Assembly: GCA_003194525.1 (NCBI GenBank)
Contig: NBIV01000076.1
Span: forward strand, 220,669-284,668
Reading direction: 5' to 3'
Length of the DNA: 64,000 nt
Origin: Gracilariopsis chorda
Taxonomy: Eukaryota; Rhodophyta; Florideophyceae; Gracilariales; Gracilariaceae
Shown here: in pieces, positions 17,191-44,300 of the stretch
Position numbering within the stretch: position 1 is the first letter of the stretch
How the letters are laid out: each line of letters starts with the position of its first letter
Position numbers and translations under genes: made by a program
The notes under the pieces: model-generated
Seen by the model: only the letters and a program-made list of their open reading frames with translations
The model's database searches: none
Told to the model about the DNA's origin: nothing

Positions 17191-18867
17191 GTGCTTTGGG
17201 ACACAGCATTAACAATGCCGCCCTCTATGCGGCTCATGTCCGCAAAGTTCAAAGTGCAGCATGAAGATCGACAGATCCAAAAAGTTCGCAGAGAAGCGGC
17301 ACTAGAGCTGCTCAAGAAAGGCGTTTCTATCCGCCCAACATCAATGGAAACCAATGTATCGTCTTCAACAGTACAACGCCTTCGAACTGCACTACAAAGC
17401 AATAACCACATAACCCTACATAAGCTTTTGTATCCAGGTACCCACCACGCTGGTAGACCGTTTGTTTTAACCATACCAGAACAATTGTTGGTTCTAAATC
17501 GCGCATTTGAAGCAACTCAGCGAGGAATCGCAATGGATGTGAAGCAAATTAGAGTGGTTTTAGGAGGTATCACAAAAGATGGCCGTATAGGATACAAAAA
17601 CGGGCTTCCAAGCGGTGATGCTTTGCGTCAATTCAAAGCAAAAAAACAGACAGCTCACCCTTCGAAATGCGGAGAATAAAATGCAGGTTCGTTTAGCTGC
17701 ACAATCTTACAGTGATGTACAATCGCTCAAAGAAATGTTAATGAAGCTCGACAGAAAACATCCAGGCCTTCTCTCCGATCCCAATCGCATTTGGAACTAT
17801 GACGATACCAGTATCTTTCCTGAATTCGGAAAGCGCGTCAAGTGTTTCTCTCCTTCTGATAGTCGTAAGGGTGGCACCAGACTGTCAATGAAGGAAAATG
17901 GAAAGCATGTTACCGCAGGAATTGTCATCTCGGCTGCAGGAAACGTTGTTCTACTAGTACTGATAGCTTCAAGAAAGCGAAAAATGTCCCATTGGCTTGA
18001 ACCACTGCATCGAGAATTCTTCGTTCATGATGACGGTAGTCCAAATTGGCTCACGGATAAAAACTGGTGTCCTGGTGACACCTGTTTGTTAGTTAGCGAA
18101 AATGGGTCAGTCGATGGCATGAACATGCCTCATATCGTTTCGCACATTAACAGGTTCATACGCACATTAATTTCTAAAGACGAACCTGTTCTTCTCCTTC
18201 TGGAAGGGCACAGTTCTCGTCAGACCGTAGAGTGGCTGGAGGTCTGTACAGAAATGAAAAAAGAAGTTATCAAACTCCCGGCATACACAACATGTTTTCT
18301 ACAGCCTTGCGACAAAGCGGTTAACAAGCGCTTTCAGGAACGCATACGCAAAACTAGAGACTCTTTGATGAGACAGTGCCATATCTCCCATGCCAACGTT
18401 GCGCTTAAAATCAAGTTAGTTGTGGCAGGATTTCGTGCAGTCACAAACGCTGTTGCCCAGAAAGCTTTTGTTGAAGCGCGGCTTTGGCCGATGAACTACG
18501 GCTTTATGAAGCCGTTTACTGTACCAAAGGCCAGTGGAGTGGTCACAACTACACTGCAGAGTGGATGTCCAGTTGATTATGATACTTTTGATCTGGAAAC
18601 TACGTCAGCGTTTCACAACAGGCGTGCGAGTCGCATGCTTGTTAATCAGATACACCGTATGACTTCACCTGGTTGTCGACCGTCATATGTCCTGGCGGAA
18701 ACTGCACTGTTGATGCGCAACTCGTACGTAGTCAACCAGTTGTTGGGCAAAAGAATTGCCCCTCTTCCCAGCGCTTCTAAGTGTTCTGCTTCAAACAAGG
18801 TTATTTGTTTCGGGAATGTTGCAGAGCTACTGACAGTTGATGAAATGCGGAGCAAATTGGGTCCAAT
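17191..18867 (+). pseudogene. pogo/Tigger-like transposase, 5' part (split by retroelement)
   Basis: The first ORF (17191-17679) has a psq-like helix-turn-helix near its N-terminus. The second (17615-18867) has the DDE_1 core: Asn-Tyr-Asp-Asp-Thr (first catalytic Asp), the 'Leu-Leu-Glu-Gly-His-Ser-Ser' block where families usually have Asp-Gly-His or Asp-Asn-His, and Leu-Gln-Pro-Cys-Asp for the third acid. The two ORFs are joined by a one-base shift at a run of seven A (17640-17646), where both frames carry matching family-like residues, so a single indel broke the gene. At 18867 a complete LTR retrotransposon interrupts it, and the reading frame resumes at 28602. The Glu in place of the second Asp suggests catalytic decay or a domesticated history. 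Confidence 0.75.
18863..18867. repeat. Target site duplication CCAAT, left
   Basis: CCAAT directly precedes the 5' LTR and is repeated directly after the 3' LTR (28597-28601), a 5-bp duplication as expected for Ty3/Gypsy integrases. Confidence 0.95.
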
Positions 18868-19673
18868 TGTAGTGCAACGCCCTCAGGGAGGGATTCTTGG
18901 TACTTGAACGCTTTCCCGATATTATCGGTTGTGTAGTGTGTATATGAACTACGCCCCACTATGGTGGATATGGACACGTGGGACACGGTTTTGGGTCAAT
19001 TGGCGGTTGGCCACAGTAGTGGATGTTGCCACGGAATGTGGAGTATTTTAGTTAATTTTGTTTATTATTTTCACACCCATTTTTGGGAAGCTAGTACTTA
19101 GTGCGACGGCGCACTGCCGTCGCACCAGTAAACCTTCCCCAACAAGGGACCCCAACCTGGGGAATTGGCTCTGAGCTTTACTGCCTCCGCGTGTTCTCAA
19201 CTCCTCCTTGGAGGGAAGCACCGTAGTGTACGGAAGTTCACCCCCCTTGCACATCTGAAGGAGACCCATCATTGGGAGTACTAATTGTTCCAAGTGTCTT
19301 GGTGTTTCGCCCTGTATAGGGTTATTGTTACCGGCATTGCCGTATCTGCTCGTCGCTCTCGCGACCCACTTGGTCTTTCCTCTTTCCCCTTTTTAGGGTA
19401 GCACCTCCCGCTATCCGCGGCCCTCGTGTGCGCATCCGCTCACACACCCCCACTTACGTGGAAACATACCTCTACTGAGGATCACACCCCGCTCACGCGG
19501 ATACCGATTCTTCGCCTTCACCTCCCTGCGCGAGTCGCGACAGGTGTCCCTGGTCTTACAAACCGGCTTCGCCGTGACACCTCTGGGAGGGCTCTACCCA
19601 ACTGGGTTCACCTCGTGAGAGGAAGATCCCGGACGTCTTTCGGTGTTTTTCCCCTTTGGGGCATTGCACCACA
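18868..19673 (+). repeat. 5' LTR of element 1
   Basis: 806 bp, TG...CA. It contains a perfect 10-bp stem with 5-nt loop at 19101-19125 and many 4-6 bp hairpins, for example 19290-19302. Open frames inside the LTR recur in every LTR copy and are not treated as genes. Confidence 0.95.
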
Positions 19674-19676
19674 AAG

Positions 19677-19696
19677 TGTTCTCCCGACCTAGAATC
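19677..19696 (+). promoter_or_regulatory. Primer binding site, one base altered
   Basis: Three bases after the LTR, the sequence is complementary to a tRNA 3' end. Element 2 has TGG followed by TCTCCCGACC here; element 1 has TGT, a mismatch to the CCA end. The reverse complement reads as a T-loop, then an acceptor strand ending TCGGGAGA-CCA. I cannot say which tRNA it is. Confidence 0.65.
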
Positions 19697-19778
19697 GGTT
19701 TTTGTTTTCCCTCTTACGAGGTTACTTTTTAGTTACCGGAAGTTCCGTGATCGTTTCCCGTCGTAACGGTATTTTCTC

Positions 19779-21955
19779 ATGTCGAGAAATCCCTCCGACG
19801 CGGAGCCAGTGGTTACGCGTAGTCGCTCCCGCGACAACGCGGACACTTCCGAAGTTCGGTTCGTACCCCGTATCCCCATACGGACAAGTTCCAGCCGTGC
19901 TGGCGCCGCTTCATCGCGGAATGATACCCCCGAACGGGAAGCCCGGAACCTCCTTTTGCCCTCGTTATCACCCCCGCAGGGGAATGCAGCATCGACTCCG
20001 GCTGTTGCCGCAGTGCCCCAGGCACCCCGGCCTGCTCCCGCTGTCGCGGCTTCAAGCCCCCGTGGAACGGGCGATAACACCCCCCAGGGGACTTCCCTGG
20101 AATCCCAGGTCCGCGCTCTGTGGACCGCCCATGACACCCTTGTAGGGGAACTAAAATCCCTCCAAGAGGTGGTCTCGGCAACCCCCGTAAAGGAGGTCGC
20201 CGAGGAACTCCGTATTTTACGGTCTGACGTCAACTCCGTGTTGGAGAGTTTGGGACAACCCGCCGCCTTCATCGAAGGAGTTGAAGCCCGATTTGATCGG
20301 ATTGGTGCCCGCCTGGAGACGCTGGAGCAGTTCGTCCTCATGGACAAACCATCCCCGGGTGATCCGGTAAACGAGGCATCGCACAACGACCAGCTTGCTG
20401 GGAAGAAGAAACGCCGTCATCGACGGAAACACCACCGGAAATATTCGGACTCCGATTCTTCGACATCGTCGGACTCATCCCGAAACCATTCGGTTAGCTC
20501 GAGCTCCTCGGGCTCCGACTCGGAGGACGAGAAGCGAGGCTACTCCTCCCGCTCGAAGCGGTCATCGGCCACTGAAGGTGTGGTCCGAACCCGCCAGAAG
20601 GGGAGAAGACACCCCGGTCTCCGGGAGTTGAAACCGACAAACCCGGATTACCGGAAGCTTTTATCATACCGGTACTACCGGCTTGAAGATTCGTCACTTG
20701 GACGTACGCCCCGGGGTACGGGAAAGGTGCGAGAATGCATTAAGCGAATGCAGCTCTCGCTCCGCAACCAGTATTTTACTGGAGAGGACCCAGTCCTAGT
20801 ACTGGATTTCCTATCCCGCTTTGTAGCGGAGGCCGATATCCTCGGTATGAATGAGGGACAAGCCTATTTGGCTTTACCGTATTTCTTACGGGGAGTGGCG
20901 GAGGACCAATACACCTCTGTCAGAGGATCTTTTCGCGCCTCTTAGGGAGGAGTTACTTGCTGGCCGGAGGCTGTGCAGTATCTTCTGCGCTCCTACGCCA
21001 CCAACACCGCTATTCAGCAGGCTATCCTCGCTTTGCAAGATACACGCCAGCGTGCTGGAGAGACCGAGACCGATTACTCGGTGCGCCTTAACAAGGCTTT
21101 CCACAGATGTGGTAACGTATACCCCGCTGGGGAGCGCAGTACCATGTTCATTGATGGTCTTGACCCGGCAATCCGGAGTTTAGTTACCCGTTATCGGGAG
21201 GACAAGCGAAGGATCACCTACCTCGAGCTGGTCCAACACGCTCGAGCGGAAGGGGATGCACTTCGTGCAAGAACTCCGAACAATCAGTCTAAATCCGCCA
21301 AGGCTTCGTTGCTGGAAAGCGAAGCTTCCTCTCTCCCGCTCACCGCGGATGGGAACCCTGGACAGGGATTTGATACCGTGCATTTAGTGCAGGGGGATGG
21401 TGTGTCGATACCCACCAGTGAGTTACCGTCAACGACGGAGATGACCCATGATACGGGAACAGAAGATCCCGTTCTATACGGTGGTAACAGTCGGGTTCAA
21501 CCCCAACGACTCCCGTTTTCAAACGGTCAATCTCGTTATCAACGGCCTGGATGGACTGACACCCGCCCTGCGGTTCGCTTCTCCGATACTCGGAATAATA
21601 ATCCGCGTGTCGCGGTGCTGGCTCTCATTTGCCACCTGTGTTATGCCCATGGCCATACCTCTCTCCTCAGTGTATTTGTTCATTGAAGGATATGGCCAAG
21701 GTGGTGGCAAATTATGAGGCCCTCAATCCAGAGGAGAAACGTTCCGTCCCGACGGCTTCCTACCTCCGTGCTAAAACGGACTTTTCTCACGCCCTACCAC
21801 AGACCCCGCGGGCGCGGCAAGATTCATACACCCCGATTCGGGAGATCACGCAACCATCCGTTGCAACCCCTGCTTATGCGGATAGAAACCCCCGTCAACG
21901 GGATGAAGCACTCGTTGTCGAGGAAACCAACCCACTGCCGAAGGCGGAAAACTAA
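19779..21955 (+). pseudogene. gag of element 1 (stop and frameshift)
   Basis: Same gene as the intact 724-residue gag of element 2. A TAG at 20943-20945 replaces a Glu codon, and a CT insertion near 21661 shifts the frame just before the last Cys of the CCHC zinc knuckle. Everything else aligns closely with element 2. The product would be truncated within the capsid-like region, so element 1 cannot supply full-length Gag. Confidence 0.9.
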
Positions 21956-24900
21956 CTGAGGGAGTCTCCCCTTTGGGAGAGGCGTCCTCAAGAACGAGGC
22001 TGTTGGCGCCCGAGGCGTCCTCGCCTCGCTCCCCGGTGAAAGTCTTCTCGAGGAAACACACCGCTGACGCGGACTCTGCGCACCTCGGTGTGTTGCGCCG
22101 CCCATGGATACGGAGTAAAAATCCCCGGATTCCCGGTAGAGTCTTGGTCTTGGCCAAGCGCAATTATAAGGTCTATGCCGACCTTGGTCTTGACCTCCAG
22201 TTTATGGTGAGGTTTCTCACCGTCCTGGATACAGGTGCAGGCCCCAACTTCGTTGTGGAATCATTGTTACCCCCGCTCGTGCGGTCGCGTATCCGCTCTG
22301 ACGCGGTCCCCGACATTTCGGATGCGAACAACAATCCGTTACAAACGGTGGGCACAGTGGACCTCGTCGTGAGACTTGGTACCTCTGTGGTGAAGTTGGA
22401 CTTCATCGTTTGCCGTTCATTGGCAGCACCAGTCATACTGGGATGTGATTACTGCGACAGATTTGTCGACGCAATCAGGCCCCGCCTCAGGCGTGTAGAA
22501 CTTGAAGACGGATCGTCGGTTCCGATTGTTCGCCGCCCGCTAAAGCGGTCCTCTCGGAAACAAGTTCCGCTCCCTGCTGCGCAGGAACCAACACCCACGT
22601 ACCGCGAGTCCACCAAGCTCCGCGTCGCTGCCTCGGTTTCTATACCGGCTGAGTCCCAAGTCTGGGTGCAGGTAAATTCCCGTCAACACGGTCTTCGGGT
22701 TATACAACCCCTCGCCTCGTTGTACGATAAATCCCAGCTGGCGCTGGCTAATGGAATTGTCTCCATTTCCCCGGATGTCCCTTTCCGGATATTGGCTGCC
22801 AACCTTGGCAAACACCCCCAGTATCTGGTCAAACACCAAGTAATTGGGAGTGTAACCCCCCATCCTATGGGAATGCTGCCAACAAAGATGACAGCCGCCG
22901 ATGTACTCGGAGTTTCCACCTCTTCTGAGGAGTTCGCCCCGCCGTCCGAAGACATCAAGTCTAAGGAGGGGGAGGAAACCGCTACTTCAGCGCCGAACAT
23001 ACCGAGTAACTCGGAATTGCGAACCACACCTGTTCCACAGGACAATGCTCCATCGAGCAATGACCGGATTGATCCGAAAAAAGCACTTGAAGCGCTGGAC
23101 TTCAGCCACGTGCCAGAGTCGCACCGCGACAAACTCCGTACTATGTTACGGGAATTCACCACAATGTGGGATGCCTCGCTTGGCGAGATTGATGCAACGG
23201 AACACCGGATCGATTTAATCCCCGGTGCGCGACCGGTTGCACAACCCCTTTACAGGGCAGGTCCGAAAGCTCGGGAAGAGGAGCATTCCCAGGTGGACAA
23301 GATGCTCCGCGCAGGTGTGATTGAGCCCGCTCAATCACCCTGGGCATCCCCAGTTGTACTGGCTTTAAAGGCCGACGGAACCTGGAGGTTCTGTGTCGAC
23401 TACCGCCGGCTCAATGCCGTGACTGTTAGGGACACGTACCCCATCCCTCGTCTGGACGAGTGCATTGACTCCCTTGGAGACGCCACCGTGTTCACGGCCC
23501 TTGATGCCAATTGGGGATATTGGCAAGTACCTGTCAGACAGGAGGATCGCGACAAAACCGCATTCACCTGCCATGCAGGAACGTACCGCTTCAAGCGGAT
23601 GCCATTTGGGTTAACCAACGCCCCCGCCACCTTTCAGCGTGCAGTAGATATTCTACTCAACCGCTTTAAGTGGCGGAGTTGTCTGGTCTACCTTGATGAT
23701 ATTATCATCTTCTCCAACTCGTTGGACGACCATCTCACTCACGTCCGAGACGTGCTCACCGTACTCCGCGATGCGGGAACTACCCTCAAGTTGAGGAAAT
23801 GCGAGTTTTTCACAGATACTGTGAAGTATCTGGGTCACATTATCCGTCCTGGACGGTTAGCGATCGAGAAAGCTCGAGTCAAATCCCTCGTTGAGGCGAA
23901 AGAACCCCGTACTCAAACGGAACTGCGCTCCTTTCTGGGGCTGGTCAACGTCTATCGACGGTTTATCCCGAACTTTTCGGATACTGCAGCGCCCCTGAAC
24001 GCGTTGTTGCGAAAGGGGAACCCCCCAAAACTGGGCACATTTACGCCCGAGCAATCGGAAGCTTTTAACTCCTTAAAGGAGGCTGTCACATCAGCACCAA
24101 TCCTACATCTCCCAAACCTTGGGTTGCCATACTCCGTAGATACGGACTCGAGCGACTACCAAGTCGGGTGTGCTCTTTTTCAAACCACCCCCGAGGGGGA
24201 ACGAGATCCAATTGGTTATTGGTCACGTTCGCTCAATGTTCATGAGCGGAACTACTCCGTATCGGAGAAAGAGTGCCTCGCCGTCGTATGGGCGATGACC
24301 ACTCTGCACCCCTACCTTATGGGAATTCACTTCACCGTGTACACGGATCATTCCTCATTGAGGTGGTTGATGAATATCTCCGACCCGTCGGGACGCCTCA
24401 TGCGCTGGAGACTCCACCTCGCGGAATATGACTTTCAAGTCATTTATAAAAAGGGTGCGCAGAACACCCAGGCCGACGCTTTATCGCGGTTACCCACAAG
24501 TGGGGAAGCACTCCCAACGGAGGATGATGAAGTCCCATGCTTCATGGCTATAGACCCGGATGATCCGGAATATGCCGTCGAGGCTAGGCCAGAAACCTGG
24601 GACGAGAATGCTGATTTTGACGAACTACTCGCATCGCGAGATAAATCTGAGAACCCGTTAACGGGAAACTTTTTACCGGTATCACCGGAAGAAATGATCC
24701 GAGAACAATTCGGCGACCCATTCTGTACGATAATTCGTGCCCGTATCAACGGTGGTGAAGATCTCCCTTTCGGGGTAAACGACAAAGGCTACCTCGTAAG
24801 AAAGGTCGAAGCCCGCCCACAGATTGTGGTACCACATTCCCTGCAATCGCGGGTGTTACATCTATCACACTACGCCCCCATTGGAGGTCACCCAGGTGGG

Positions 24901-27534
24901 AGGAAACTCTACCTAACCCTGCGAAGGGATTTCTATTGGCCCGCAATGGCGGTGGATTGCTACGCAACTGTGCGGTTTTGTAGCGAATGCGCGAAGAATC
25001 GCGTCAAACTCCGCAAAAATGCGAAGAAGATGAAACTATTCCCCGCAAGGGAGCCGCTCGAGTTTATTGCAATCGATATTCTCGGACCATTACTCACCAC
25101 GAAACGTGGAAACAAGTTTCTACTTGTCATTACCGACCGCTTTTCTAAGCTGGTACGGACTGTCCCTCTTCGGAGGATAACCGCTCTCACGGTGGCCCAG
25201 GCTCTGGTGACACACTGGATTTTTGTCTACGGTCCCTCTGTAGAGGTGCTCTCTGACAACGGGAAGCAGTTCGTGAGCAAGTTCTTCCAGGATGTTTGTC
25301 GCATCCTGGATGTCAAGAACTTGTTCACGACTACCTATCACCCCCAGTGTAATGGGCAAGTTGAACAGTTTAACCGGACGTTACTCGCGGCGTTACGTTC
25401 TTACGTCGCTGACCACCCAACGAATTGGGATCTCTACGCTGATGCGGTAACCTACGCGTACAATACGCAGGTACACCGGACTACCGGAGTTTCGCCATTC
25501 GAGTTAGTTCTATCTAGAACACCCCCGCCTGTGGCGCTGGAACCCCAAGCTACCTTGGACAATTTCCCATCTGTGGGTATCTACCGGCAGCAATGGAAGC
25601 AATGGCTTTCCAAGCTGGTCCCCGCTGCGCGGAAGTCTATGGCACGGGCCCAAGCCGCTTACAAGCTGGATTTTGATGCTCGCTTGCGAGGGAAACCATC
25701 CCCGATTCGGGCGAATAACTACGTCTTCATCAGGAAGGAGTACTACAACCCGGAACGGGAGAAGCGTCACAAACTCTCGCCTGTGGCGGATGGACCCTTC
25801 AAGGTGATCTCTGTTAACACCGACACTGTCGTGGTAGAGATGGGGGACACGCACGAACGGATTTCCCGTGATCGTGTTGTCCTTGCCACTCCTCCCTCGT
25901 CAGAGGTAGTCCTGGATCCAGGCAACCCCGTTTCTACGGACTCCGCTACACCGGAACAATCCGGGAGTACTAGACCTACGGTACTACCACACCCCAGCCG
26001 GGGACTCTCAGACCTACCGACTCTGTCGGACTCACCGGCTCAGCCGGGTAATTCGGGCCCCTCAGCGCCCGCCCCTACCACGTCTGCCCCACTGGCGCGC
26101 ATCTATACCCGCCAGGCGGGGAATTTTATCCCTTATCCCGCCACTCCGTCTAAGGAGGGGGAGGAGAACACTCTTTTTCGAGGAACGATATCACCGTCGC
26201 AACGGGAAACACACCGTAACATACGGAACACTGACCGTGGAGCACGGAGTATGTCACGCGACACTAGTCCCCCGTTCTCGGGCAGTGCTGTGCAACAGGA
26301 ACCAGACGCGCAGGCCCCGCAAAAGCGGCAAATACACCGTTTGTCACGGGAAAACGAGAAGCCTCACTCCAATACCGCAGCAGCGGAAAGGCAATCGCTC
26401 GATGCCTCGAAGCCGCCGTTGGCGGAAGTCCCCGCGGAAGCGGTTCAATCAGGTCGATCAGACCCGCGCCCTGCGGAGAAGGGGCGCCCAGATACGCCGG
26501 CCTCACAGGGGAATACCCACACCCCTCTTGGGGAAAAAGGCGGCCAAGCTGCAGTCGAAGCTTTAAGCCCTGGCTCGCAAGCACCGGAAACGCCTCCCGT
26601 CGTTGACGGAATCAAAGCCCCCGCTACGGGGAATAATTTGCGCCAACCCCCGCATCGCTGTGGCGAAGAACCGAGGAACTCGGGAATAACGCGCGCCATC
26701 GCCCGCCCAAAACCGGTCGTACCGGACGCTGCTCCTCCTCACGGAGATGGTGCACTGCGCTCAGCGGCAATTCCCCTAAAAAGGGTGTCATCGGCACCTG
26801 CCCGGCACCCCCCAAAGGGGAATTTTGACCAAAATACCGGTGTACCGTAGTTAGCCCCAGACAACCCGTCAGTAGCCGGGGACAACACGGCATCGCCGGA
26901 ACGTATGGTGCATAGCGCTCGTGCGCCTGGCAGGGAGGCGGTTTGCCACCCAATCACCTTGTCGCACGGGACCCCCCAGGGGATTGTGGAAATGCCGATC
27001 CCGCAGGAGCGGTCATCTTCCCGCAAACTCGCGGTTCGTGAGCTCAACCGCGAAGGCGGAGCCCAAGTCCCCCGCCGACTGGCGGTTCGCCCGCAATACT
27101 GCGAAAGCGGAAATGAACCTGCCCCAATGGGGAATGACTTGCCGGTGAAAACCGTGGCACCACACACCCTCTTGAGGGATATCTTCCCGCATGAGCAGCG
27201 GCCGCCATCACATCGCACGGCATCGCTGGAGTTATCGCCGAACACCGTGCTAAGGGACATTATACCGCACAGCGGGCAGCCCCCGCAAGGAATTACAACC
27301 ACCACCCGGCACGGCCGGCAGGTCTACGAACGAGAGTTCGTAGTAGACCGACTTGTCGGACACACCTGGGACCAGGATGGTATTCTACAATACCGCGTCC
27401 GCTGGTACGGGTATGACCCCAGTGGGGATACGTGGGAGCCAATCGAACACCTCCCACGGTCGCAGGTCGTGCGATACCACCGTCAAACGGGAACTGCAGC
27501 TCCAGCCACGCTGGTAAATGCCCAAGTTGGGTAA
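21907..27534 (+). CDS. pol of element 1 with late in-frame stop
   Basis: The open pol frame starts at 21907 inside the end of gag, in the -1 frame. In order it encodes: aspartic protease (Asp-Thr-Gly-Ala at 22228-22239); reverse transcriptase with Tyr-Leu-Asp-Asp at 23689-23700; RNase H ending in a Tyr-Thr-Asp-His-Ser-Ser-Leu-Arg block; integrase with an HHCC zinc finger (24865-25000); and a DDE core (Ala-Ile-Asp-Ile, Leu-Ser-Asp-Asn-Gly-Lys, and Asn-Gly-Gln-Val-Glu). A Pro-rich linker of about 430 residues follows, then a chromodomain (27322-27490). A TAG at 26848-26850, a Glu codon in element 2, separates the chromodomain from the rest. The enzymes are otherwise open over 1,625 codons, while targeting by the chromodomain would be lost. 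Confidence 0.92.
27322..27490 (+). other. Chromodomain of element 1
   Basis: Encodes a Tyr-Glu-Arg-Glu-Phe-Val-Val-Asp start, then a Tyr-Arg-Val-Arg-Trp-Tyr-Gly-Tyr stretch and Asp-Thr-Trp-Glu-Pro, the canonical aromatic cage and Trp-Glu motif of chromodomains. In chromoviruses this domain directs integration to chromatin with histone marks. Here it lies downstream of an in-frame stop. Confidence 0.85.
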
Positions 27535-27778
27535 CGTTGCCGCGCGAACGGAGGGCGATAGGAAAGGATAACATGGCAAGGTCTGTCGAAGACAGGGAAC
27601 TCAAATGAGAATCACCGTTAAAAACGTGAAAGTTTATTCAAGGGAGCAGCTAGCTCCCCACAACACTTTACTACAATAGCCGGCTATGCCAGGAAAGAAG
27701 AACCGGAGACGGCGTACGCGCTTTTATCACCCATTTTCGTCTGGGAACCCTCCGCGTCCGCGGTCGTTTTCCCGTCTT

Positions 27779-27790
27779 AGGGGGGGGATA
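27779..27790 (+). promoter_or_regulatory. Polypurine tract, element 1
   Basis: A run of eight G preceded by A lies directly before the 3' LTR and would be the plus-strand primer. Confidence 0.8.
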
Positions 27791-28596
27791 TGTAGTGCAA
27801 CGCCCTCAGGGAGGGATTCTTGGTACTTGAACGCTTTCCCGATATTATCGGTTGTGTAGTGTGTATATGAACTACGCCCCACTATGGTGGATATGGACAC
27901 GTGGGACACGGTTTTGGGTCAATTGGCGGTTGGCCACAGTAGTGGATGTTGCCACGGAATGTGGAGTATTTTAGTTAATTTTGTTTATTATTTTCACACC
28001 CATTTCTGGGAAGCTAGTACTTAGTGCGACGGCGCACTGCCGTCGCACCAGTAAACCTTCCCCAACAAGGGACCCCAACCTGGGGAATTGGCTCTGAGCT
28101 TTACCGCCTCCGCGTGTTCTCAACTCCTCCTTGGAGGGAAGCACCGTAGTGTACGGAAGTTCACCCCCCTTGCACATCTAAAGGAGACCCATCATTGGGA
28201 GTACTAATTGTTCCAAGTGTCTTGGTGTTTCGCCCTGTATAGGGTTATTGTTACCGGCATTGCCGTATCTGCTCGTCGCTCTCGCGACCCACTTGGTCTT
28301 TCCTCTTTCCCCTTTTTAGGGTAGCACCTCCCGCTATCCGCGGCCCTCGTGTGCGCATCCGCTCACACACCCCCACTTACGTGGAAACATACCTCTACTG
28401 AGGATCACACCCCGCTCACGCGGATACCGATTCTTCGCCTTCACCTCCCTGCGCGAGTCGCGACAGGTGTCCCTGGTCTTACAAACCGGCTTCGCCGTGA
28501 CACCTCTGGGAGGGCTCTACCCAACTGGGTTCACCTCGTGAGAGGAAGATCCTGGACGTCTTTCGGTGTTTTTCCCCTTTGGGGCATTGCACCACA
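27791..28596 (+). repeat. 3' LTR of element 1
   Basis: 806 bp, differing from the 5' LTR at about four positions by eye (C/T changes near 28017, 28105, 28552 and A/G near 28178). Confidence 0.95.
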
Positions 28597-28601
28597 CCAA
28601 T
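28597..28601. repeat. Target site duplication CCAAT, right
   Basis: Matches 18863-18867. Removing the element plus one duplicate restores an uninterrupted reading frame in the pogo-like gene. Confidence 0.95.
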
Positions 28602-28851
28602 GAAGGGTTTCAAAGCTACAAAGAACTCTTCGCCGGTAGTGAGTGGGCTTAGTGCGGTTCGGAGTACAGCGCAAAAGGAGAACGAGCTACGAAGTGGTCA
28701 GACGAAGATGGGAGGAAAAAAAGCAGCTCAAGCCATAGCATCTTGGATGACGTTCCAATCGCGCAGTGGCCCACATGTGCCAAGAAGTCTATCGGGCGTA
28801 GAACCGTTCTTGCAGCAGTTGACTGCAATCGAACTGCAGCAGAAGCGTTAG
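28602..28851 (+). pseudogene. pogo/Tigger-like transposase, 3' part
   Basis: C-terminal about 83 codons of the gene interrupted at 18867. With one CCAAT duplicate removed, the codon phase joins exactly (the last two bases of the left part plus the first base here form ATG). The frame then continues through a Lys/Ser/Gln-rich tail to a stop at 28851. The tail is low in similarity to known families, as is usual for this part of pogo-like proteins. Confidence 0.8.
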
Positions 28852-29801: not shown

Positions 29802-29930
29802 ACTTCACGTTTTACTCTCTCCGTGCAACGATGAAGCTTCGCGCTTCTATCGTTGTCACGCTAACCAGCGTAAATTACTTAGAGGTGTTTGTTTTCGCTC
29901 TATGTTTGAATCGGATTTAATAGATATGAA

Positions 29931-31070: not shown

Positions 31071-31131
31071 CTCTCAACATTTTTTTGGGATTCTGTGTGG
31101 TTGGAATAGTCCTTTTTTTGCCCGTTCTTTC

Positions 31132-34514: not shown

Positions 34515-35320
34515 TGTAGTGCAACGCCCGAAAGGAGGGATTCTGGGTACTTGAACGCTTTCCCGATATTATCGGTTGTGTAGTGTGTATATGAACTACG
34601 CCCCACAATGGTGGGTATGGACACGTGGGACACGGTTTTGGGTCAATTGGCGGTTGGCCACAGTAGTGGATGTTGCCACGGAATGTGGAGTATTTTAGTT
34701 AATTTTATTTATTATTTTCACACCCATTTCTGGGAAGCTAGTACTTAGTGCGACGGCGCACTGCCGTCGCACCAGTAAACCTTCCCCAACAAGGGACCCC
34801 AACCTGGGGAATTGGCTCTGAGCTTTACCGCCTCCGCGTGTTCTCAACTCCTCCTTGGAGGGAAGCACCGTAGTGTACGGAAGTTCACCCCCCTTGCACA
34901 TCTGAAGGAGACCCATCATTGGGAGTACTAATTGTTCCAAGTGTCTTGGTGTTTCGCCCTGTATAGGGTTATTGTTACCGGCATTGCCGTATCTGCTCGT
35001 CGCTCTCGCGACCCACTTGGTCTTTCCTCTTTCCCCTTTTTAGGGTAGCACCTCCCGCTATCCGCGGCCCTCGTGTGCGCATCCGCTCACACACCCCCAC
35101 TTACGTGGAAACATACCTCTACTGAGGATCACACCCCGCTCACGCGGATACCGATTCTTCGCCTTCACCTCCCTGCGCGAGTCGCGACAGGTGTCCCTGG
35201 TCTTACAAACCGGCTTTGCCGTGACACCTCTGGGAGGGCTCTACCCAACTGGGTTCACCTCGTGAGAGGAAGATCCCGGACGTCTTTCGGTGTTTTTCCC
35301 CTTTGGGGCATTGCACCACA
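34515..35320 (+). repeat. 5' LTR of element 2
   Basis: 806 bp, TG...CA, close to the element 1 LTRs. It differs from its own 3' LTR at a dozen or so bases, several clustered in the region matching 43916-43946. Confidence 0.95.
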
Positions 35321-35323
35321 AAG

Positions 35324-35343
35324 TGGTCTCCCGACCTAGAATC
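35324..35343 (+). promoter_or_regulatory. Primer binding site, element 2
   Basis: TGGTCTCCCGACC and following bases, three bases after the LTR, complementary to a tRNA 3' end ending in CCA. Confidence 0.75.
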
Positions 35344-35425
35344 GGTTTTTGTTTTCCCTCTTACGAGGTTTGTTTTTATCTACCGGAAGTTCCGTGATCG
35401 TTTTCCGTCGTAACGGTATTTTCTC

Positions 35426-37600
35426 ATGTCGAGAAATCCCTCCGACGCGGAGCCAGTGGTTACGCGTAGTCGCTCCCGCGACAACGCGGACACTTCCGAA
35501 GTTCGGTTCGTACCCCGTATCCCTATACGGACAAGTTCCAGCCGTGCTGGCGCCGCTTCATCGCGGAACGATACCCCCGACCGGGAACCCCGGAACCTCC
35601 TTTTGCCCTCGTTATCACCCCCGCAGGGGAATGCAGCATCGACTCCGGCTGTTGCCGCAGTGCCCCAGGCACCCCGGCCTGCTCCCGCTGTCGCGGCTTC
35701 AAGCCCCCGTGGAACGGGCGATAACACCCCCCAGGGGACTTCCCTGGAATCCCAGGTCCGCGCTCTGTGGACTGCCCATGACACCCTTGTAGGGGAACTA
35801 AAATCCCTCCAAGAGGTGGTCTCGGCAACCCCCGTAAAGGAGGTCGCCGAGGAGCTCCGTATTTTACGGTCTGACGTCAACTCCGTGTTGGAGAGTTTGG
35901 GACAACCCGCCGCCTTCATCGAAGAAGTTGAAGCCCGATTTGATCGGATTGGTGCCCGCCTGGAGACGCTGGAGCAGTTCATCCTCATGGACAAACCATC
36001 CCCGGGTGATCCGGTCAACGAGGCATCGCACAACGACCAGCTTGCTGGGAAGAAGAAACGCCGTCACCGACGGAAACATCACCGAAAATATTCGGACTCC
36101 GATTCTTCGACATCGTCGGACTCACCCCGAAATCATTCGGTTAGCTCGAGCTCCTCGGACTCCGACTCGGAGGACGAGAAGCGAGGCTACTCCTCCCGCT
36201 CGAAGCGGTCATCGGCCACTGAAGGTGTGGTCCGAACCCGCCAGAAGGGGAGAAGACACCCCGGTCTCCGGGAGTTGAAACCGACAAACCCGGATTACCG
36301 GAAGCTTTTATCATACCGGTACTACCGGCTTGAAGATTCGTCACTTGGACGTACGCCCCGGGGTACGGGAAAGGTGCGAGAATGCATTAAGCGAATGCAG
36401 CTCTCGCTCCGCAACCAGTATTTTACTGGAGAGGACCCAGTCCTAGTACTGGATTTCCTATCCCGCTTTGTAGCGGAGGCCGATATCCTCGGTATGAATG
36501 AGGGACAAGCCTATTTGGCTTTACCGTATTTCTTACGGGGAGTGGCGGAAGACCAATACACCTCTGTCAGAGGATCTTCTCGCGCCTCCGAGGGAGGAGT
36601 TACTTGCTGGCCGGAGGCTGTGCAGTATCTTCTGCGCTCCTACGCCACCAACAACGCTATTCAGCAGGCTATCCTCGCTTTGCGAGATACACGCCAGCGT
36701 GCTGGAGAGACCGAGACCGATTACTCGGTGCGCCTTAACAAGGCTTTCCACAGATGTGGTAACGTATACCCCGCTGGGGAGCGCAGTATCATGTTCATTG
36801 ATGATCTTGACCCGGCAATCCGGAGTTTAGTTACCCGGTATCGGGAGGACAAGCGAAGGATCACCTACCTCGAGCTGGTCCAACACGCTCGAGCGGAAGG
36901 GGATGCACTTCGTGCAAGAACTCCGAACAATCGGTCTAAATCCGCCAAGGCGTTGTTGCTGGAAAGCGAAGCTTCCTCTCTCCCGCTCACCGCGGATGGG
37001 AACCCTGGACAGGGATTTGATACCGTGCATTTAGCGCAGGGAGATGGTGTGTCGATACCCACCAGTGAGTTACCGTCAACGACGGAGATGACCCATGATA
37101 CGGGAACAGAAGATCCCGTTCTATACGGTGGTAACAGTCGGGTTCAACCCCAACGACTCCCGTTTTCAAACGGTCAATCCCGTTATCAACGGCCTGGATG
37201 GACTGACACCCGCCCTGCGGTTCGCTTCTCCGATACTCGGAATAATAATCCGCGTGTCGTGGTGCTGGCTCTCATTTGCCACCTGTGCTATGCCCATGGC
37301 CATACCTCTCCTCAGTGTATTTGTTCACTGAAGGATATGGCCAAGGTGGTGGCAAATTATGAGGCCCTCACTCCAGAGGAGAAACGTTCCGTCCCGACGG
37401 CGTCCTACCTCCGTGCTAAAACGGACTTTTCCCATGCCCTACCACAGACCCCGCGTGCGCGGCAAGCTTCAAACACCCCGATTCGGGAGATCACGCAACC
37501 ATCCGTTGCAACCCCCGCTTATGCGGATAGAAACCCCCGTCAACGGGATGAAGCACTCGTTGTCGAGGAAACCAACCCACCGCCGAAGGCGGAAAACTAA
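35426..37600 (+). CDS. gag of element 2, intact, 724 aa
   Basis: Begins at ATG 35426. The N-terminal third is Arg/Ser/Pro-rich and disordered. A basic KKKRRHRRKHH-type stretch and a Ser/Asp-rich tract (about residues 210-255) follow. The capsid-like region (about 290-500) has the retrotransposon gag pattern around Leu-Asp-Phe-Leu-Ser-Arg-Phe. Near the C-terminus is a CCHC zinc knuckle with exact Cys-x2-Cys-x4-His-x4-Cys spacing (37277-37318). It should form the particle and bind element RNA. The stop at 37598-37600 lies inside the open pol frame. This is the only intact gag in the window. Confidence 0.93.
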   Translation: MSRNPSDAEPVVTRSRSRDNADTSEVRFVPRIPIRTSSSRAGAASSRNDTPDREPRNLLLPSLSPPQGNAASTPAVAAVPQAPRPAPAVAASSPRGTGDNTPQGTSLESQVRALWTAHDTLVGELKSLQEVVSATPVKEVAEELRILRSDVNSVLESLGQPAAFIEEVEARFDRIGARLETLEQFILMDKPSPGDPVNEASHNDQLAGKKKRRHRRKHHRKYSDSDSSTSSDSPRNHSVSSSSSDSDSEDEKRGYSSRSKRSSATEGVVRTRQKGRRHPGLRELKPTNPDYRKLLSYRYYRLEDSSLGRTPRGTGKVRECIKRMQLSLRNQYFTGEDPVLVLDFLSRFVAEADILGMNEGQAYLALPYFLRGVAEDQYTSVRGSSRASEGGVTCWPEAVQYLLRSYATNNAIQQAILALRDTRQRAGETETDYSVRLNKAFHRCGNVYPAGERSIMFIDDLDPAIRSLVTRYREDKRRITYLELVQHARAEGDALRARTPNNRSKSAKALLLESEASSLPLTADGNPGQGFDTVHLAQGDGVSIPTSELPSTTEMTHDTGTEDPVLYGGNSRVQPQRLPFSNGQSRYQRPGWTDTRPAVRFSDTRNNNPRVVVLALICHLCYAHGHTSPQCICSLKDMAKVVANYEALTPEEKRSVPTASYLRAKTDFSHALPQTPRARQASNTPIREITQPSVATPAYADRNPRQRDEALVVEETNPPPKAEN

Positions 37601-40600
37601 CTGAGGGAGTCTCCCCTTTGGGAGAGGCGTCCTCAAGAACGAGGCTGTTGGCGCCCGAGGCGTCCTCGCCTCGCTCCCCGGTGAAAGTCCTCTCGAGGAA
37701 AGACACCGCTGACGCGGACTCTGCGCACCTCGGTGTGTTGCGTCGCCCGTGGATACGGAGTAAAAATCCCCGGATTCCCGGTAGAGTCTTGGTCTTGGCC
37801 AAGCGCAATTATAAGTTCTATGCAGACCTTGGCCTTGACCCCCAGTTTATGGTGAGGTTTCTCACCGTCCTGGATACAGGTGCAGGCCCCAACTTCGTTG
37901 TGGAATCATTGTTACCCCCGCTTGTGCGGTCTCGTATCCGCTCTGACGCGGTCCCCGACATTTCGGATGCGAATAACAACCCGTTACAAACGGTGGGCAC
38001 GGTGGACCTCGTCGTGAGACTTGGTACCTCCGTGGTGAAGTTGGACTTCATCGTTTGCCGTTCATTGGCAGCACCAGTCATACTCGGATGTGATTACTGC
38101 GACAGATTTGTCGACGCAATCAGGCCCCGCCTCAGGCGTGTAGAACTTGACGACGGATCGTCAGTTCCGATTGTTCGCCGCCCACTAAAGCGGTCCTCTC
38201 GGAAACAAGTTCCGCTCCCTGCTGCGCAGGAACCACCGCCCGCGTCCAGCGAGTCCACCAAGCTCCGCGTCGCTGCCTCGGTTTCTATACCGGCTGAGTC
38301 CCAAGTCTGGGTGCAGGTAAATTCCCGTCAACACGGTCTTCGGGTTATACAACCCCTCGCCTCGTTGTACGAGAAATCCCAGCTGGCGCTGGCTAATGGA
38401 ATTGTCTCCATTTCCCCGGATGTCCCTTTCCGGATATTGGTTGCCAACCTTGGCAAACACCCCTAGTATCTGGTCAAACACCAAGTAATTGGGAGTGTAA
38501 CTCCCCATCCTATGGGAATGCTGCCAACAAAGATGACAGCCGCCGATGTACTCGGAGTTACCACCTCTTCTGAGGAGTTCGCCCCGCCGTCCGAAGACGT
38601 CAAGTCTAAGGAGGGGGAGGAAACCACTACTTCAGCGCCGAACATACCGAGTAAATCGAAATTGCGAACCACACCTGTTCCACAGGACAATGCTCCATCG
38701 AGCAATGACCGGATTGATCCGGAAAAAGCACTTGAAGCGCTGGACTTCAGCCACGTGCCAGAGTCGCACCGCGACAAACTCCGTACTATGTTACGGGAAT
38801 TCACCACAATGTGGGATGGCTCGCTTGGCGAGATTAATGCAACGGAACACCGGATCGATTTAATCCCCGGTGCGCGACCGGTTGCACAACCCCCTTACAG
38901 GGCAGGTCCGAAAGCTCGGGAAGAGGAGCAGTCCCAAGTGGACAAGATGCTCCGCGCAGGTGTGATTGAGCCCGCTCAATCACCCTGGGCATCCCCAGTT
39001 GTACTGGCTTTAAAGGCCGACGGAACCTGGAGGTTCTGTGTCGACTACCGCCGGCTCAATGCCGTGACTGTTAGGGACACGTACCCCATCCCTCGTATGG
39101 ACGAGTGCATTGACTCCCTTGGAGACGCCACCGTGTTCACGGCCCTTGATGCCAATTGGGGATATTGGCAAGTACCTGTCAGACAGGAGGATCGCGACAA
39201 AACCGCATTCACCTGCCATGCAGGAACGTACCGCTTCAAGCGGATGCCATTTGGGTTAACCAACGCCCCCGCCACCTTTCAGCGTGCAGTAGATATTCTA
39301 CTCAACCGCTTTAAGTGGCGGAGTTGTCTGGTCTACCTTGATGATATTATCATCTTCTCCAACTCGTTGGACGACCATCTCACTCACGTCCGAGACGTGC
39401 TCACCGTACTCCGCGATGCGGGAACTACCCTCAAGTTGAGGAAATGCGAGTTTTTCACAGATACTGTGAAGTATCTGGGTCACATTATCCGTCCTGGACG
39501 GTTAGCGATCGAGAAAGCTCGAGTCAAATCCCTCGTTGAGGCGAAAGAACCCCGTACTCAAACGGAACTGCGCTCCTTTCTGGGACTGGTCAACGTCTAT
39601 CGACGGTTTATCCCGAACTTTTCGGATACTGCAGCGCCCCTGAACGCGTTGTTGCGAAAGGGGAACCCCCCAAAACTGGGAACATTTACGCCCGAGCAAT
39701 CGGAAGCTTTTAACTCCTTAAACGAGGCTGTCACATCAGCACCAATCCTACATCTCCCAAAACTTGGGTTGCCATACTCCGTAGATACGGACTCGAGCGA
39801 CTACCAAGTCGGGTGTGCTCTTTTTCAAACCACCCCCGAGGGGGAACGGCACCCAATTGGTTATTGGTCACGTTCGCTCAATGTTCATGAGCGGAACTAC
39901 TCCGTATCGGAGAAAGAGTGCCTCGCCGTCGTATGGGCGATGACCACTCTGCGCCCCTACCTTATGGGAATTCACTTCACCGTGTACACGGATCATTCCT
40001 CACTGAGGTGGTTAATGAATATCTCCGACCCGTCGGGACGCCTCATGCGCTGGAGACTCCGCCTCGCGGAATATGACTTCCAAGTCATTTATAAAAAGGG
40101 CGCGCAGAACACCCAAGCCGACGCTCTGTCGCGTTTACCCACAAGTGGGGAGGCACTCCCAACGGAGGATGATGAAGTCCCATGTTTCATGGCAATGGAC
40201 CCGGATGATCCGGAATGTGCCGTCGAGGCTGAGCCAGAAAACTGGGACGAAGATGCTGACTTCGACTACCTACTCGCATAGCGAGATGATTCTGAGAAAC
40301 CCATACCGGGAAATTATGTACCGGTTGAGACCGAGGAAATGATCCGAGAACAATTCGGGGACCCCTTCTGTACAAGGATACGTGCACGCCTCAACGGCGG
40401 AGAGAACCTCCCCTTCGGGGTGAACGACATTGGTTACCTCGTGAGGACCGTCGAGGTTACCCCACAAGTTGTGGTACCGCACACGCTACAGAAGCGGATA
40501 TTGCACCTTTCGCATTACCCGAAACTCGGGGGACACTCCGGTGGGAGGAAGCTTTATCTAACCCTTCGCAGGGATTTCTACTGGCCCGCCATGGCGGTTG

Positions 40601-43167
40601 ATTGCTACGCTACGGTGCGGTTTTGCACGCAATGCGCGAAGAACCGGGTCAAACTCCGGAAGCACTCCAAACGGATGAAGCTATTCCCCGCCAGGGCGCC
40701 GCTCGAGTTTGTCGCAATTGACATTCTCGGACCATTGCTCTCTACCAGGAGAGGCAACAAGTTCCTACTCGTTATTACGGACAGGTTCTCGAAATTAGTT
40801 CGGACAGTCCCTCTAAAGAGGATTACCGCCTACACGGTCGCTCACGCCTTTGTGCGGCATTGGGTGTTTGCCTACGGACCTCCTTTGGAGCTACTTTCCG
40901 ACAACGGGAAACAGTTCGCATCGCGATTTTTCCAGGACGTCTGTCGGATACTGGATGTGAAGAATCTCTTCACGACCACGTATCATCCCCAGTCTAATGG
41001 GCAGGTCGAGCGTTTCAACCGGACAATGCTCGCAGCTCTCCGTGCTTACACGGCTGACCACCCCAAGACTTGGGATATCTACACGGATGCCGTGACCTTT
41101 GCGTACAATACGCAGGTACACCGGACTACCGGAATATCCCCTTTCGAGTTGGTCCTTTCACGGACACCCCCGCCAATGGCGTTGGAATCCCAACCTACGT
41201 TGGACGCGTTCCCTTCTGTGAAGGATTACCGCCAGAAGTGGAAAGCATGGCTGACCAAGCTGGTACCCGCAGCGCGGAAGGCGATGGACCGCGCCCAAGC
41301 CGTCTACAAACGGAATTTCGATGCTCGCTTGCGAGGAGGCAAACCGGAACAGATCAACTCCGGGGACTTCGTATTCGTCCGCAAGGAGTACTACAACCCT
41401 GAAAGGGAGAAGCACCATAAGCTCTCGCCTGTGGCGGATGGTCCTTTCAAGGTTATCTCCGTCACGACGGACACAGTGGTTGTGGAAATGGGTGACGCGC
41501 ATGAGCGGTTATCTCGCGATCGCATCGTGCTAGCTCCGCCACCCTCGACTGAGGCTGCACCAGCTACGCTGGACCCTACACTGGAATATGGCTCTGCATC
41601 CGATACATCGGTGGTGAGACGGCCTACCGTGCTACCACACCCCTCCCGGGGACTCTCAGACCTACCGACCCTGTCGGACTCACCGGCTCAGCCGGGTAAT
41701 TCGGGCCTCTCTGTGCCCGCCCCTATGGCGCGAATCTACACCCGCCAGGCGGGGAATGTTATCCCTTATCCCGCCGCTCCGTCTAAGGAGGGGGAGGAGA
41801 ACACTCGTTTTCGAGGAACGATATCACCGTCGCAACGGGAAACACACCGTAACATACGGAACACTGACCGTGGAGCACGGAGTATGTCACGCGACACTAA
41901 TCCCCCGTTCCCGGGCAGTGCTGTACAACAGGAACCAGACGCGCAGGCCCCGCAAAAGCGGCAAATACACCGTTTGTCACGGGAAAACGAGAAGCCTCAC
42001 TCCAAGACCGCAGCAGCGGAAAGGCAATCGCCCGATGCCTCGAAGCCGCCGTTGGCGGAAGTCCCCGCGGAAGCGGTTCAATCAGGTCGATCAGACCCGC
42101 GCCCCGCGGAGAAGAGGCGCCCAGATACACCAGCGCCGCTGGGAAATACCCACACCCCTCTTGGGGAAAAAGGCGGCCAAGCTGCAGTCGAAGCTTTAAG
42201 CCCTGGCTTGCAAGCACCGGAAACGCCTCCCGTCGTTGACGGAATCAAAGCCCCCGCTACGGGGAATAATTTGCGCCAACCCCCGCATCGCTGCGGCGAA
42301 GAACCGAGAAACTCGGGAATAACGCGCGCCATCGCACGCTCGAAACCGGTCGTACCGGACGCTGCTCCTCCTCACGGAGATGGTGCACTGCGCTCAGCGG
42401 CAATTCCCCTGAAAAGGGTGTCATCGGCACCTGCCCAGAACCCCCCAAAGGGGAATTTTGACCAAAATACCGGTGTACCGGAGTTAGCCCCAGGCAACCC
42501 GTCAGTAGCCGGGGACACCACGGCGTCGCCGGAACGTATGGTGCAGAGCGCTCGTGCGCCTGGCAGGGAGGCGGTTTGCCACCCAATCACCGTGTCGCAC
42601 GGGACCCCCCAGGGGACTGTGGAAATGACGATCCCGCAGGAGCGGTCATCTTCCCGCAAACTCGCGGTTCGTGAGCTCAACCGCGAAGGCGGAGCCCAAG
42701 TCCCCCGCCGACTGGCGGTTCGCCTGGCCTACCGTGAAGACGGGAACAACGACACCCCAATGGGGAATGACTTGCCGGGGAAAACCGTGACACCACATAC
42801 CCTCTTGAGGGATATTTTCCCGCATGAGCAGCGGCCACTAGGACAGCGCACGGCAACGTCGGAGTTATCGCCGAACACCCTGCTAAGGGACATTATACCG
42901 CACAGCGGGCAGCCCTCGCAAGGGAGTACAACCACCACCCGGCACGGCCGGCAGGTCTACGAACGAGAGTTCGTAGTAGACCGACTTGTCGGACACAACT
43001 GGAACCAGGATGGTATTCTACAATACCGCGTCCGCTGGTACGGGTACGACCCCAGTGGGGATACGTGGGAGCCAATTGAACACCTCCCACGGTCGCAGGT
43101 TCTGCGATACCACCGTCAGACGGGAACTGCAGCCCCAGCCACGCTGGTTAATGCCCAAGTTGGGTAA
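37552..43167 (+). pseudogene. pol of element 2 with two stops
   Basis: Same domain order as element 1: protease, reverse transcriptase with Tyr-Leu-Asp-Asp at 39334-39345, RNase H, integrase, linker, chromodomain. A TAG at 38464-38466 (Gln in element 1) lies between protease and RT, and a TAG at 40279-40281 (Ser in element 1) lies between RNase H and integrase. From 40339 the frame is open for 942 codons through integrase and chromodomain. No frameshifts were seen, so the decay consists of point changes only. Confidence 0.92.
42955..43120 (+). other. Chromodomain of element 2
   Basis: Same motifs as in element 1, here fused in frame to the integrase through the Pro-rich linker. Confidence 0.85.
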
Positions 43168-43476
43168 CGTTGCCGCGCGAGCGGAGAGCGAAAGGAAAGG
43201 ATAACAAGGCAAAGTCCGTCGAAGACGGGGAACTCAACCGAGAAGCACCGTTCTAAACGGGAAAGTTTATTCAGGGGAGCAGCTAGCTCCCCACAATACT
43301 ACACTACACTAACTGGCATAGCCAGGGAAAGAAGAACTAGGAAACAACGGCTGCGGTATCAGGGGCTAGTGACTCTGATGCAGAGGAAATTACCGGAGAA
43401 CCGGAGACGGCGCACGCGCTTTTATCACCCATTTTCGTCTGGGAACCCTCCGCGTCCGCGGTCGTTTTCCCGTCTT

Positions 43477-43487
43477 AGGGGGGGATA
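43477..43487 (+). promoter_or_regulatory. Polypurine tract, element 2
   Basis: A followed by seven G, directly before the 3' LTR. Confidence 0.8.
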
Positions 43488-44295: not shown

Positions 44296-44300
44296 GAAGT
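44296..44300. repeat. Target site duplication GAAGT, right
   Basis: Matches 34510-34514. Confidence 0.95.

Follow-up and report, generated by a model that had tools for sequence, protein, structure and literature searches.

Tiny perfect hairpins far above chance, coding sequence included, in one retrotransposon lineage of a red seaweed

RNA viruses with genome-scale ordered RNA structure fold more strongly than codon-preserving shuffles along the whole genome, at positions that are not conserved. The retrotransposon described here resembles them in its unconserved hairpin positions and, in one family (A, below), in a clear folding excess, but its internal G·U pairs are unused and both of its strands fold alike. 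Perfect inverted repeats within coding sequence are known from the mitochondrial genes of Nematomorpha, where the portion of the published account used here describes palindromes with arms of up to 284 bp in a few genes (PMC6649704). As in that portion, imperfect repeats are not in excess in our elements and gains and losses are many; unlike there, the arms measure 4-5 bp, number hundreds per element, lie in a retrotransposon, and in one family show signs of selection. The longest stems listed have 10 bp, and long coding palindromes were not found. Template-switch hairpins, as far as the excerpted account goes, are also short-range perfect Watson-Crick stems, but copies of our elements show neither palindrome-making clusters nor a creation bias (PMC8794818). 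Yeast Ty3 is likewise a Ty3/Gypsy element with structured regions in its genomic RNA, including reverse transcriptase (RT); in the part of that study considered here its RNA combines structured regions with dynamic ones, and saturation with small perfect hairpins is seen only in our elements (PMC11381356).

The window, i.e., the whole 64,000-nt stretch of Gracilariopsis chorda DNA that was analysed, contains two elements of the same family (Table 1). Element 1, with its 806-bp LTRs and CCAAT duplicated at both ends, has the makeup of a chromovirus-like Ty3/Gypsy element: Pfam matches run from RT through RNase H to integrase, and a chromodomain is present, which in this copy lies beyond a stop in a frame of its own. 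A tRNA primer binding site was sought in the 40 nt past the 5' LTR, which contain no TGG. A self-priming site was rejected (best match 11/20, shuffle average 11.5).

Table 1. Coordinates of the features of elements 1 and 2 in the window.
Feature	Position	Strand	Remarks
Target-site duplication, left	18863..18867	.	CCAAT
5' LTR of element 1	18868..19673	+	806 bp, hairpin-rich
LTR stem	19101..19125	.	10 bp, 5-nt loop
gag-like open frame	19767..20945	+	hairpin-rich; stop at 20943-20945
gag-like frame continued	20946..21686	+	past stop
pol frame	21907..26850	+	RVT_1, RNase H, integrase zinc domain, rve; hairpin-rich
Stem within RT coding sequence	23317..23338	.	10 bp, 2-nt loop
Densest stretch	23320..24480	.	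33 stems >=5 bp, loops 2-7, vs 9.0
Frame with chromodomain	26851..27534	+	past stop at 26848-26850
3' LTR of element 1	27791..28596	+	4 mismatches vs 5' LTR
Target-site duplication, right	28597..28601	.	CCAAT
Element 2	34515..44300	+	same family; LTRs 34515-35320 and 43488-44300

Hairpins cover the whole of element 1: LTRs, gag, pol and tail. The initial annotation had counted them by eye and judged them too dense for chance, and this was borne out by 300 shuffles preserving protein, codon use and codon-junction dinucleotides. Between 23320 and 24480, with loops of 2-7 nt, there are 33 stems of at least 5 bp vs 9.0 in shuffles (maximum 17) and 13 of at least 6 bp vs 2.3 (maximum 7); with loops of 3-8 nt and dinucleotide shuffles, the counts are 30 vs 5.8 and 9 vs 1.3. 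The observed numbers thus lie outside the shuffle range, and equal density in unrelated genes was not seen either. The stems it quoted are present at 23378, 23447, 23695, 23713 and 23740, together with, in the LTR, the 10-bp stem 19101-19125 (loop 5); its stem 23320-23335 proved to be the inner part of a larger one (23317-23338, 10 bp, loop 2), and 25287-25309 reads by eye as an 8-bp stem with a 7-nt loop. As it also stated, the hairpins cross protein motifs and therefore use synonymous freedom; codon use and dinucleotides do not account for them in the strict shuffles. Exact 5-bp stems with loops of 2-4 nt number 51 in pol (22105-25899; 9.4 in strict shuffles, z 12.2), and the 5' LTR has 8 exact 5-bp stems vs 1.6 expected. 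Stems in the gag-like frame (19782-20942) number 20 vs 3.5 in codon shuffles, and the interior of element 2 (35340-43470, loops 3-8) holds 155 stems of at least 5 bp vs 44.2.

Both sequences put forward earlier as hairpin-poor controls kept that role: the glycosyltransferase gene (3775-5805) has no comparable density (7 vs 4.2; with loops 3-8 a mild excess, 18 vs 10.3, z 2.4), and the old Gypsy remnant (31922-32516) has none (0 vs 1.3). The window flanks are at expectation (observed/expected 45/43.3 in 1-18800, 12/12.4 in 28700-34000 and 40/41.7 in 45000-64000), and ten host chaperone genes show a mild 1.45x excess (64 vs 44.1). An artefact, whether from composition (bases or k-mers), codon use or assembly, is extremely improbable: the C-rich 5' arms of one family (A, below) speak for it, but the excess survives strict shuffles, 5-bp stems with loops of 9-30 nt are near chance (129 vs 113), there are many copies on many contigs, and the trait recurs on an independent contig. 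The strict shuffles and the loop-length control led us to reject composition, codon and k-mer artefacts.

The excess is concentrated in hairpins whose stem has 4-5 bp and whose loop has 2-5 nt; those of 5 bp with a 3-nt loop occur 58 times vs 7 expected. In the families measured there is one hairpin per 33-43 nt. At loop 3, stem length falls off past 5 bp (63 exact 5-bp stems vs 6 longer); in family A pol, with loops of 2-4 nt, 16 longer stems stand beside 51 exact ones, and a hard upper limit on stem length is thus not claimed. Loops of 3-4 nt are preferred beyond energy, and RNA energy does not explain this preference. On reading the stem list by eye (uncounted), neither a common loop sequence nor special stable loops were evident. 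Family A arms have the form CC...GG with a C-rich 5' arm, and on the coding strand the sequence flanking the hairpins is rich in A (p 1e-6). The CC...GG form is found partly in family B and is absent in families C and D and contig L089; a sequence-specific protein site was considered for the A-flanked arms of family A and rejected, as C, D and L089 lack them. Hairpin centres in family A are most often 18-22 nt apart (76 pairs at those distances); because pooled pieces of B, C, D and L089 lack this peak, regular spacing is not built upon.

Searching the host genome for further families, as the initial annotation had proposed, revealed the trait in four families of one Ty3/Gypsy clade (3.4-6.8x). 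Contig L089, from another source, belongs to the same clade and has it as well. The hairpins noted in the two elements are thus real, but the focus on these two was too narrow, since the trait is a property of the clade. It is absent from more distant Gypsy elements and from 12/12 Copia loci tested; among viral contigs there is one relative, at 40%, without it. Among the groups tested, the trait is therefore restricted to one clade. The families are near synonymous saturation, with 0.40-0.48 of third positions alike at identical residues, and each keeps its hairpin density while most hairpin positions turn over. Between families most hairpins are lost, not converted.

Variants among copies bear on whether such hairpins are kept or made. 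At least 102 copies of family A were listed, of which 30 entered the variant test. Singletons there fall 63 in stems to 94 outside, whereas variants in at least three copies fall 7 to 42 (p 0.0009; lost vs outside, single vs shared variants, odds ratio 2.7, p 0.0009). This supports selection against stem loss, in family A only, and suggests that selection maintains the hairpins. Against this stand the two-copy variants of family A, which are not depleted in stems (9:15), A2, which alone gives p 0.09, and families B and C, with few shared variants, in which the test does not replicate (B 1:1; C 4 stem to 3 non-stem, p 0.07, in the opposite direction). Alternatively, RT might fold the growing strand back on itself through a tiny loop and use it as its own template, making or repairing perfect stems without function. 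Such copying is consistent with stems that pair strictly by Watson-Crick rules and with tiny loops, template switching is described for DNA replication (PMC8794818), and nematomorph palindromes are, in the portion cited above, likewise perfect or absent (PMC6649704). However, hairpin-creating variants in family A number 30 vs 37.3 by chance, in 29 copies none of the 66 occurrences of clustered changes (<=8 nt apart) forms a hairpin holding all of them, hairpins are mostly lost between families, and loop-3 stems drop off past 5 bp. Perfection of quasi-palindromes by template switching, suggested at the outset, is thus not supported, and this already weakened explanation is improbable. We favour selection over it because family A singletons fall freely in stems, creation is not above chance, and shared variants avoid stems.

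Perfect stems number 160 vs 45.7 expected, whereas stems with one internal G·T pair are at chance (58 vs 57.7); the G·U-including pairing of the genomic strand that belongs to ordered viral RNA is thus not seen. An energy-matched test agrees that G·U is unused in family A, and does so more weakly in B-D, where in the strongest energy bin G·U stems (2.0x sense, 1.6x antisense) come near the Watson-Crick enrichment (2.6-2.7x). The folding excess, measured in pol and RT parts, is similar on sense and antisense strands; it reaches 17.1% on the sense strand in family A, and in B-D (3.9-7.8%; sense 4.2-6.7%) overlaps that of one host gene (5.8 and 4.5%). Both B-D results weigh against our reading below. 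Because internal G·U is unused, pairing seems relevant on both strands or in DNA. A compact genomic RNA, also suggested initially, is accordingly disfavoured as the lone cause. That the hairpins act in sense genomic RNA, as dispersed Gag/nucleocapsid sites or by general compaction, is improbable, and slightly more so than the copying mechanism above: the sense folding excess and coding-strand A flanks of family A would fit it, as would the structured RT regions of Ty3 RNA (PMC11381356), but G·U is unused, antisense folds equally well, no common loop sequence is apparent by eye (uncounted), and RNA energy leaves the loop-size preference unexplained.

It is less doubtful, though still unlikely, that the site of action is the single-stranded DNA of reverse transcription, where hairpins would compact or protect the cDNA or guide strand synthesis. 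Under selection on DNA pairing, G·T would not count and both strands would look alike, as observed; the preference for 3-4-nt loops beyond energy, coverage of the whole element with its LTRs, and restriction to one RT lineage also fit. Yet no known benefit requires it, stable G·T stems are mildly enriched in DNA energy bins (29/20 and 62/36), and in telling real hairpins from shuffled ones the DNA energy model does about as well as the RNA model (AUC 0.588 vs 0.569 overall; 0.590 vs 0.600 for Watson-Crick loops 3-5), so that this comparison is not decisive. If correct, it would reveal a previously unrecognised constraint on reverse transcription.

The excess, its geometry, its clade restriction, the density kept near saturation as positions turn over, and the indifference to internal G·U are features in which we have high confidence. 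Tentatively, the reading that we favour from them is that the hairpins may blunt host small-RNA silencing, in line with the third cause named in the initial annotation, avoidance of small-RNA targeting. The chromodomain Ty3/Gypsy clade keeps LTRs, gag, pol and tail filled with Watson-Crick hairpins of 4-5 bp and a 2-5-nt loop. With pairing relevant on both strands, RNAs of either polarity, along with the small RNAs cleaved from them, may be self-structured at short range and thus poor substrates, making Argonaute-guided or other hybridisation-based silencing less effective. Local density alone would matter, leaving hairpin positions free to move. A shade more tentative is the general formulation, that a second, sequence-independent rule may span the entire retrotransposon genome, in which closely packed Watson-Crick mini-hairpins on both strands, formed anew while synonymous sites saturate, would camouflage it against guided silencing. 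The host genome encodes two Piwi domains, both of them full, as well as two Dicer-like ORFs in which RNase III domains are paired; a search for RdRP gave no match in the genome, and no control matched either. Windows of 21-24 nt in family A hold a whole hairpin in 35-44% of cases vs 11-14% in shuffles. More than half of these windows hold none, and elements of the same genome without the trait thrive, which both speak against evasion; the coding-strand A-rich flanks of family A speak against full strand symmetry.

Blunted small-RNA silencing would represent a sequence-free evasion strategy. The pattern itself seems to constrain the entire genome of a transposable element; it is invisible to ordinary alignment and, in the best-sampled family, apparently kept by selection. 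Living alongside the hairpin-rich families in the same genome, the elements without the trait provide natural controls.

The density of short perfect inverted repeats (hairpins) that the initial annotation had counted by eye in the RT coding DNA of element 1 was borne out, with 33 in 23320-24480 against 9.0 in shuffles (maximum 17 among 300). Tabulated by stem and loop across the internal region, observed/expected counts of 5-bp stems were 29/6, 58/7 and 19/5 for loops of 2, 3 and 4 nt, and those of 4-bp stems 66/26, 64/21 and 41/19 for loops of 3, 4 and 5 nt. Loops of 9-30 nt, which serve as an internal control, had stem counts close to expectation: 129 exact 5-bp stems against 112.9 (SD 9.6), compared with 106 against 16.3 for loops of 2-4 nt. 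The excess is present in each of the LTR, gag, pol and tail, and in pol (51 against 9.4) it was measured against shuffles preserving protein, codon use and codon-junction dinucleotides. The two elements are the only places where the per-kb profile of the window shows a clear rise; the flanks lie at 0.96-1.04 times expectation and ten host chaperone genes at 1.45 times. The excess is real and specific.

Element 1 encodes a gag-like frame, then RT, RNase H, integrase and a chromodomain. Its host is a red alga: one HSP70-type protein encoded in the genome matches a Gracilariopsis chorda protein at 100% identity over 603 aa, and for Pol the top relative among the matches listed comes from Agarophyton chilense (72% over query residues 350-850). 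The absence of TGG after the 5' LTR of element 1 suggests that the usual tRNA 3'-end primer site is missing, and priming may be unusual. The long direct copies outside both elements represent either a segmental duplication or unmerged haplotypes.

Features of element 1 and the neighbouring DNA (window coordinates)
Feature	Coordinates	Details
Element 1, LTR retrotransposon	18868-28596	806-bp LTRs with 4 mismatches between them; CCAAT target duplications
Stops interrupting this copy	20943-20945; 26848-26850	
Stretch after 5' LTR of element 1	19674-19713	TGG absent
ORF with DDE_1 endonuclease domain	17591-18862	reaches element 1 insertion site; ordinary hairpin content
Partial LTR copy	34107-34514	89-90%; immediately 5' of element 2 5' LTR
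Direct copies	1-14302; 49678-64000	99.0% identity over 14.3 kb; flank both elements on the outside

Dense hairpins are a trait of one clade among those compared. Counting exact 5-bp stems with loops of 2-4 nt against dinucleotide shuffles, the four hairpin-rich Ty3/Gypsy families A, B, C and D stood at 3.4-6.8 times expectation (family A, to which the elements of the window belong, from 5 of its 30 fetched copies). They share 67-75% DNA similarity, and the RT proteins of B, C and D are 77-84% similar to that of A. No such density was found in Gypsy loci at 34-43% RT identity (0.6-1.1 times; L051-L054 and L058, which form one family, L059, L061 and L078) or in any of 12 Copia loci (0.7-1.5 times). 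Locus L089 (73% RT identity over 111 aa) carries 20 hairpins of 5 bp/3 nt against 2.1, with mixed outer pairs; L093 duplicates it (24 against 7.0), and L084, at 54% RT identity, has a weak excess (24 against 16.1). A further 16 loci gave only 0.5-1.8 times expectation, the top ones, L098 and L099, reaching z 2.2; some loci share contigs (L092 and L097 with L084, L094 with L085, L096 with L086). The Ty3/Gypsy loci L089 (JALZUP010000409.1, Robiginitomaculum MAG) and L084 (WTKN01000225.1, Moorena) lie on contigs filed as bacterial MAGs, which look like eukaryotic contamination.

As to function, we rank first, tentatively, that the hairpins may blunt small-RNA silencing through self-structure on both strands. 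Whole hairpins are contained in 35-44% of 21-24-nt windows in family A (11-14% in its shuffles), 26-37% in B, C and D, 22-29% in L089 and 11-14% in Copia. The host genome contains coding sequence for two full Piwi domains, and two of its ORFs have paired RNase III domains; a genome search for RdRP found none, and control genomes gave no match either. Piwi (Argonaute) domain fragments also occur in facing opposite-strand pairs, at 17466-17756(-) with 17956-18156(+) on contig C483 of genome G000, recurring near 25474 and 33482 in a repeat of ~8.0 kb, and on C648, C777 and C944. Such units could yield double-stranded RNA against host Argonaute.

Two rivals to the silencing reading, both ranked after it, place the role in a single molecule: single-stranded cDNA, a somewhat less probable site, or genomic RNA, a less probable one still, ranked close behind a mutational origin. 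Across the pol sequences of A-D, a single internal mismatch put stems at chance level, both for G.T (58 against 57.7) and for A.C (53 against 61.9), compared with 160 perfect stems against 45.7. At matched predicted RNA energy, Watson-Crick stems of family A reached 4.3 and 5.7 times expectation in the two strongest bins, and one-G.U stems 1.27 times in both bins for the sense strand and 1.1 and 1.8 times for the antisense. This contrast is weaker in B-D (Watson-Crick 2.6 and 3.0 against G.U 2.0 and 1.1 in sense; 2.7 and 2.9 against 1.6 and 1.5 in antisense), where G.U stems may include a Watson-Crick core. Stems with G.T (18/6.7) and with A.C (16/8.1) are each elevated in L093, which we read as transition decay. 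Folding excess over codon shuffles (sense/antisense, %) was 17.1/16.1 in A, 6.0/7.8 in B, 4.2/5.5 in C and 6.7/3.9 in D, with 3.3/3.0 in Copia, 1.5/4.4 and 0.2/-0.2 in hairpin-poor Gypsy, and 1.4/-3.0 and 5.8/4.5 in HSP70. The loop-size effect exceeds energy under RNA and DNA models alike, between which there was no clear winner; stable G.T stems were slightly enriched in DNA energy bins (29/20, 62/36). From the chance-level G.T, energy-matched, folding and loop-size results, the property that counts seems to be pairing that holds in DNA or on both strands. Two features of family A hairpins speak against full strand symmetry: they are flanked by A on the coding strand (chi-square 30.6, p 1e-6) and frequently lie ~20 nt apart.

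Hairpin losses look filtered within the transposing lineage. Among the best-scoring 30 of at least 102 family A copies, over the region where all align, stem:non-stem counts were 63:94 for singletons and 7:42 for variants in at least three copies (Fisher p 0.0009; here and in the tests below, p values are optimistic, as shared variants may be recombination-linked), with no stem depletion among two-copy variants (9:15). Subfamily A1 alone gave 74:145 against 2:20 for shared variants (p 0.016) and A2 29:60 against 4:23 (p 0.09). Restricted to stems of at least 5 bp, the tests gave p 0.009, 0.14 and 0.27 for family A, A1 and A2. Stem-losing and outside variants, single against shared, gave an odds ratio of 2.7 in A1 and A2 (p 0.0009). 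A mutational origin of the hairpins, also ranked after the silencing reading, is unlikely: in A1 and A2 singletons destroyed 91 stems and created 21 (chance expectation 26.2), and variants in at least two copies destroyed 14 and created 9 (11.1), so mutation is net destructive, without bias toward making hairpins. None of 66 occurrences of change clusters (41 in A1, 25 in A2, some common to several copies) forms a hairpin containing all its changes. Family C runs in the opposite direction to A (12:42 against 4:3, p 0.07), family B gave 19:43 against 1:1, and the Copia control lacked the contrast (107:475 against 7:29).

Between families, compared by one copy each, third positions of identical residues agree at only 0.40-0.48, each family still retaining its hairpin density. 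Same-centre hairpins number 7-17 per family pair, against 0.6-1.1 after shifting one family, and those whose two sides have both changed amount to 2-5 in each comparison (codon shuffles: 0.4-1.7). The majority of positions turn over. Divergence between elements 1 and 2 is 0-4% as far as the end of RT and 23-34% beyond, in the integrase part; in this alignment 89 of the 126 element 1 hairpins were unchanged, 35 broken and 2 compensated, and element 2 has 121. Elements 1 (22105-26000) and 2 (37700-41700) and locus L038 are mosaics, near-equal up to and through RT and then divergent (45-60% beyond RT for L038), as would be expected had they swapped the integrase part.

Among the papers listed in our search of the open-access literature, none was seen to describe such hairpin saturation in retrotransposons. 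Among the nearest known systems, judging from the parts of these sources consulted, are the coding palindromes of Nematomorpha (PMC6649704), template-switch hairpins (PMC8794818) and the Ty3 RNA map (PMC11381356).
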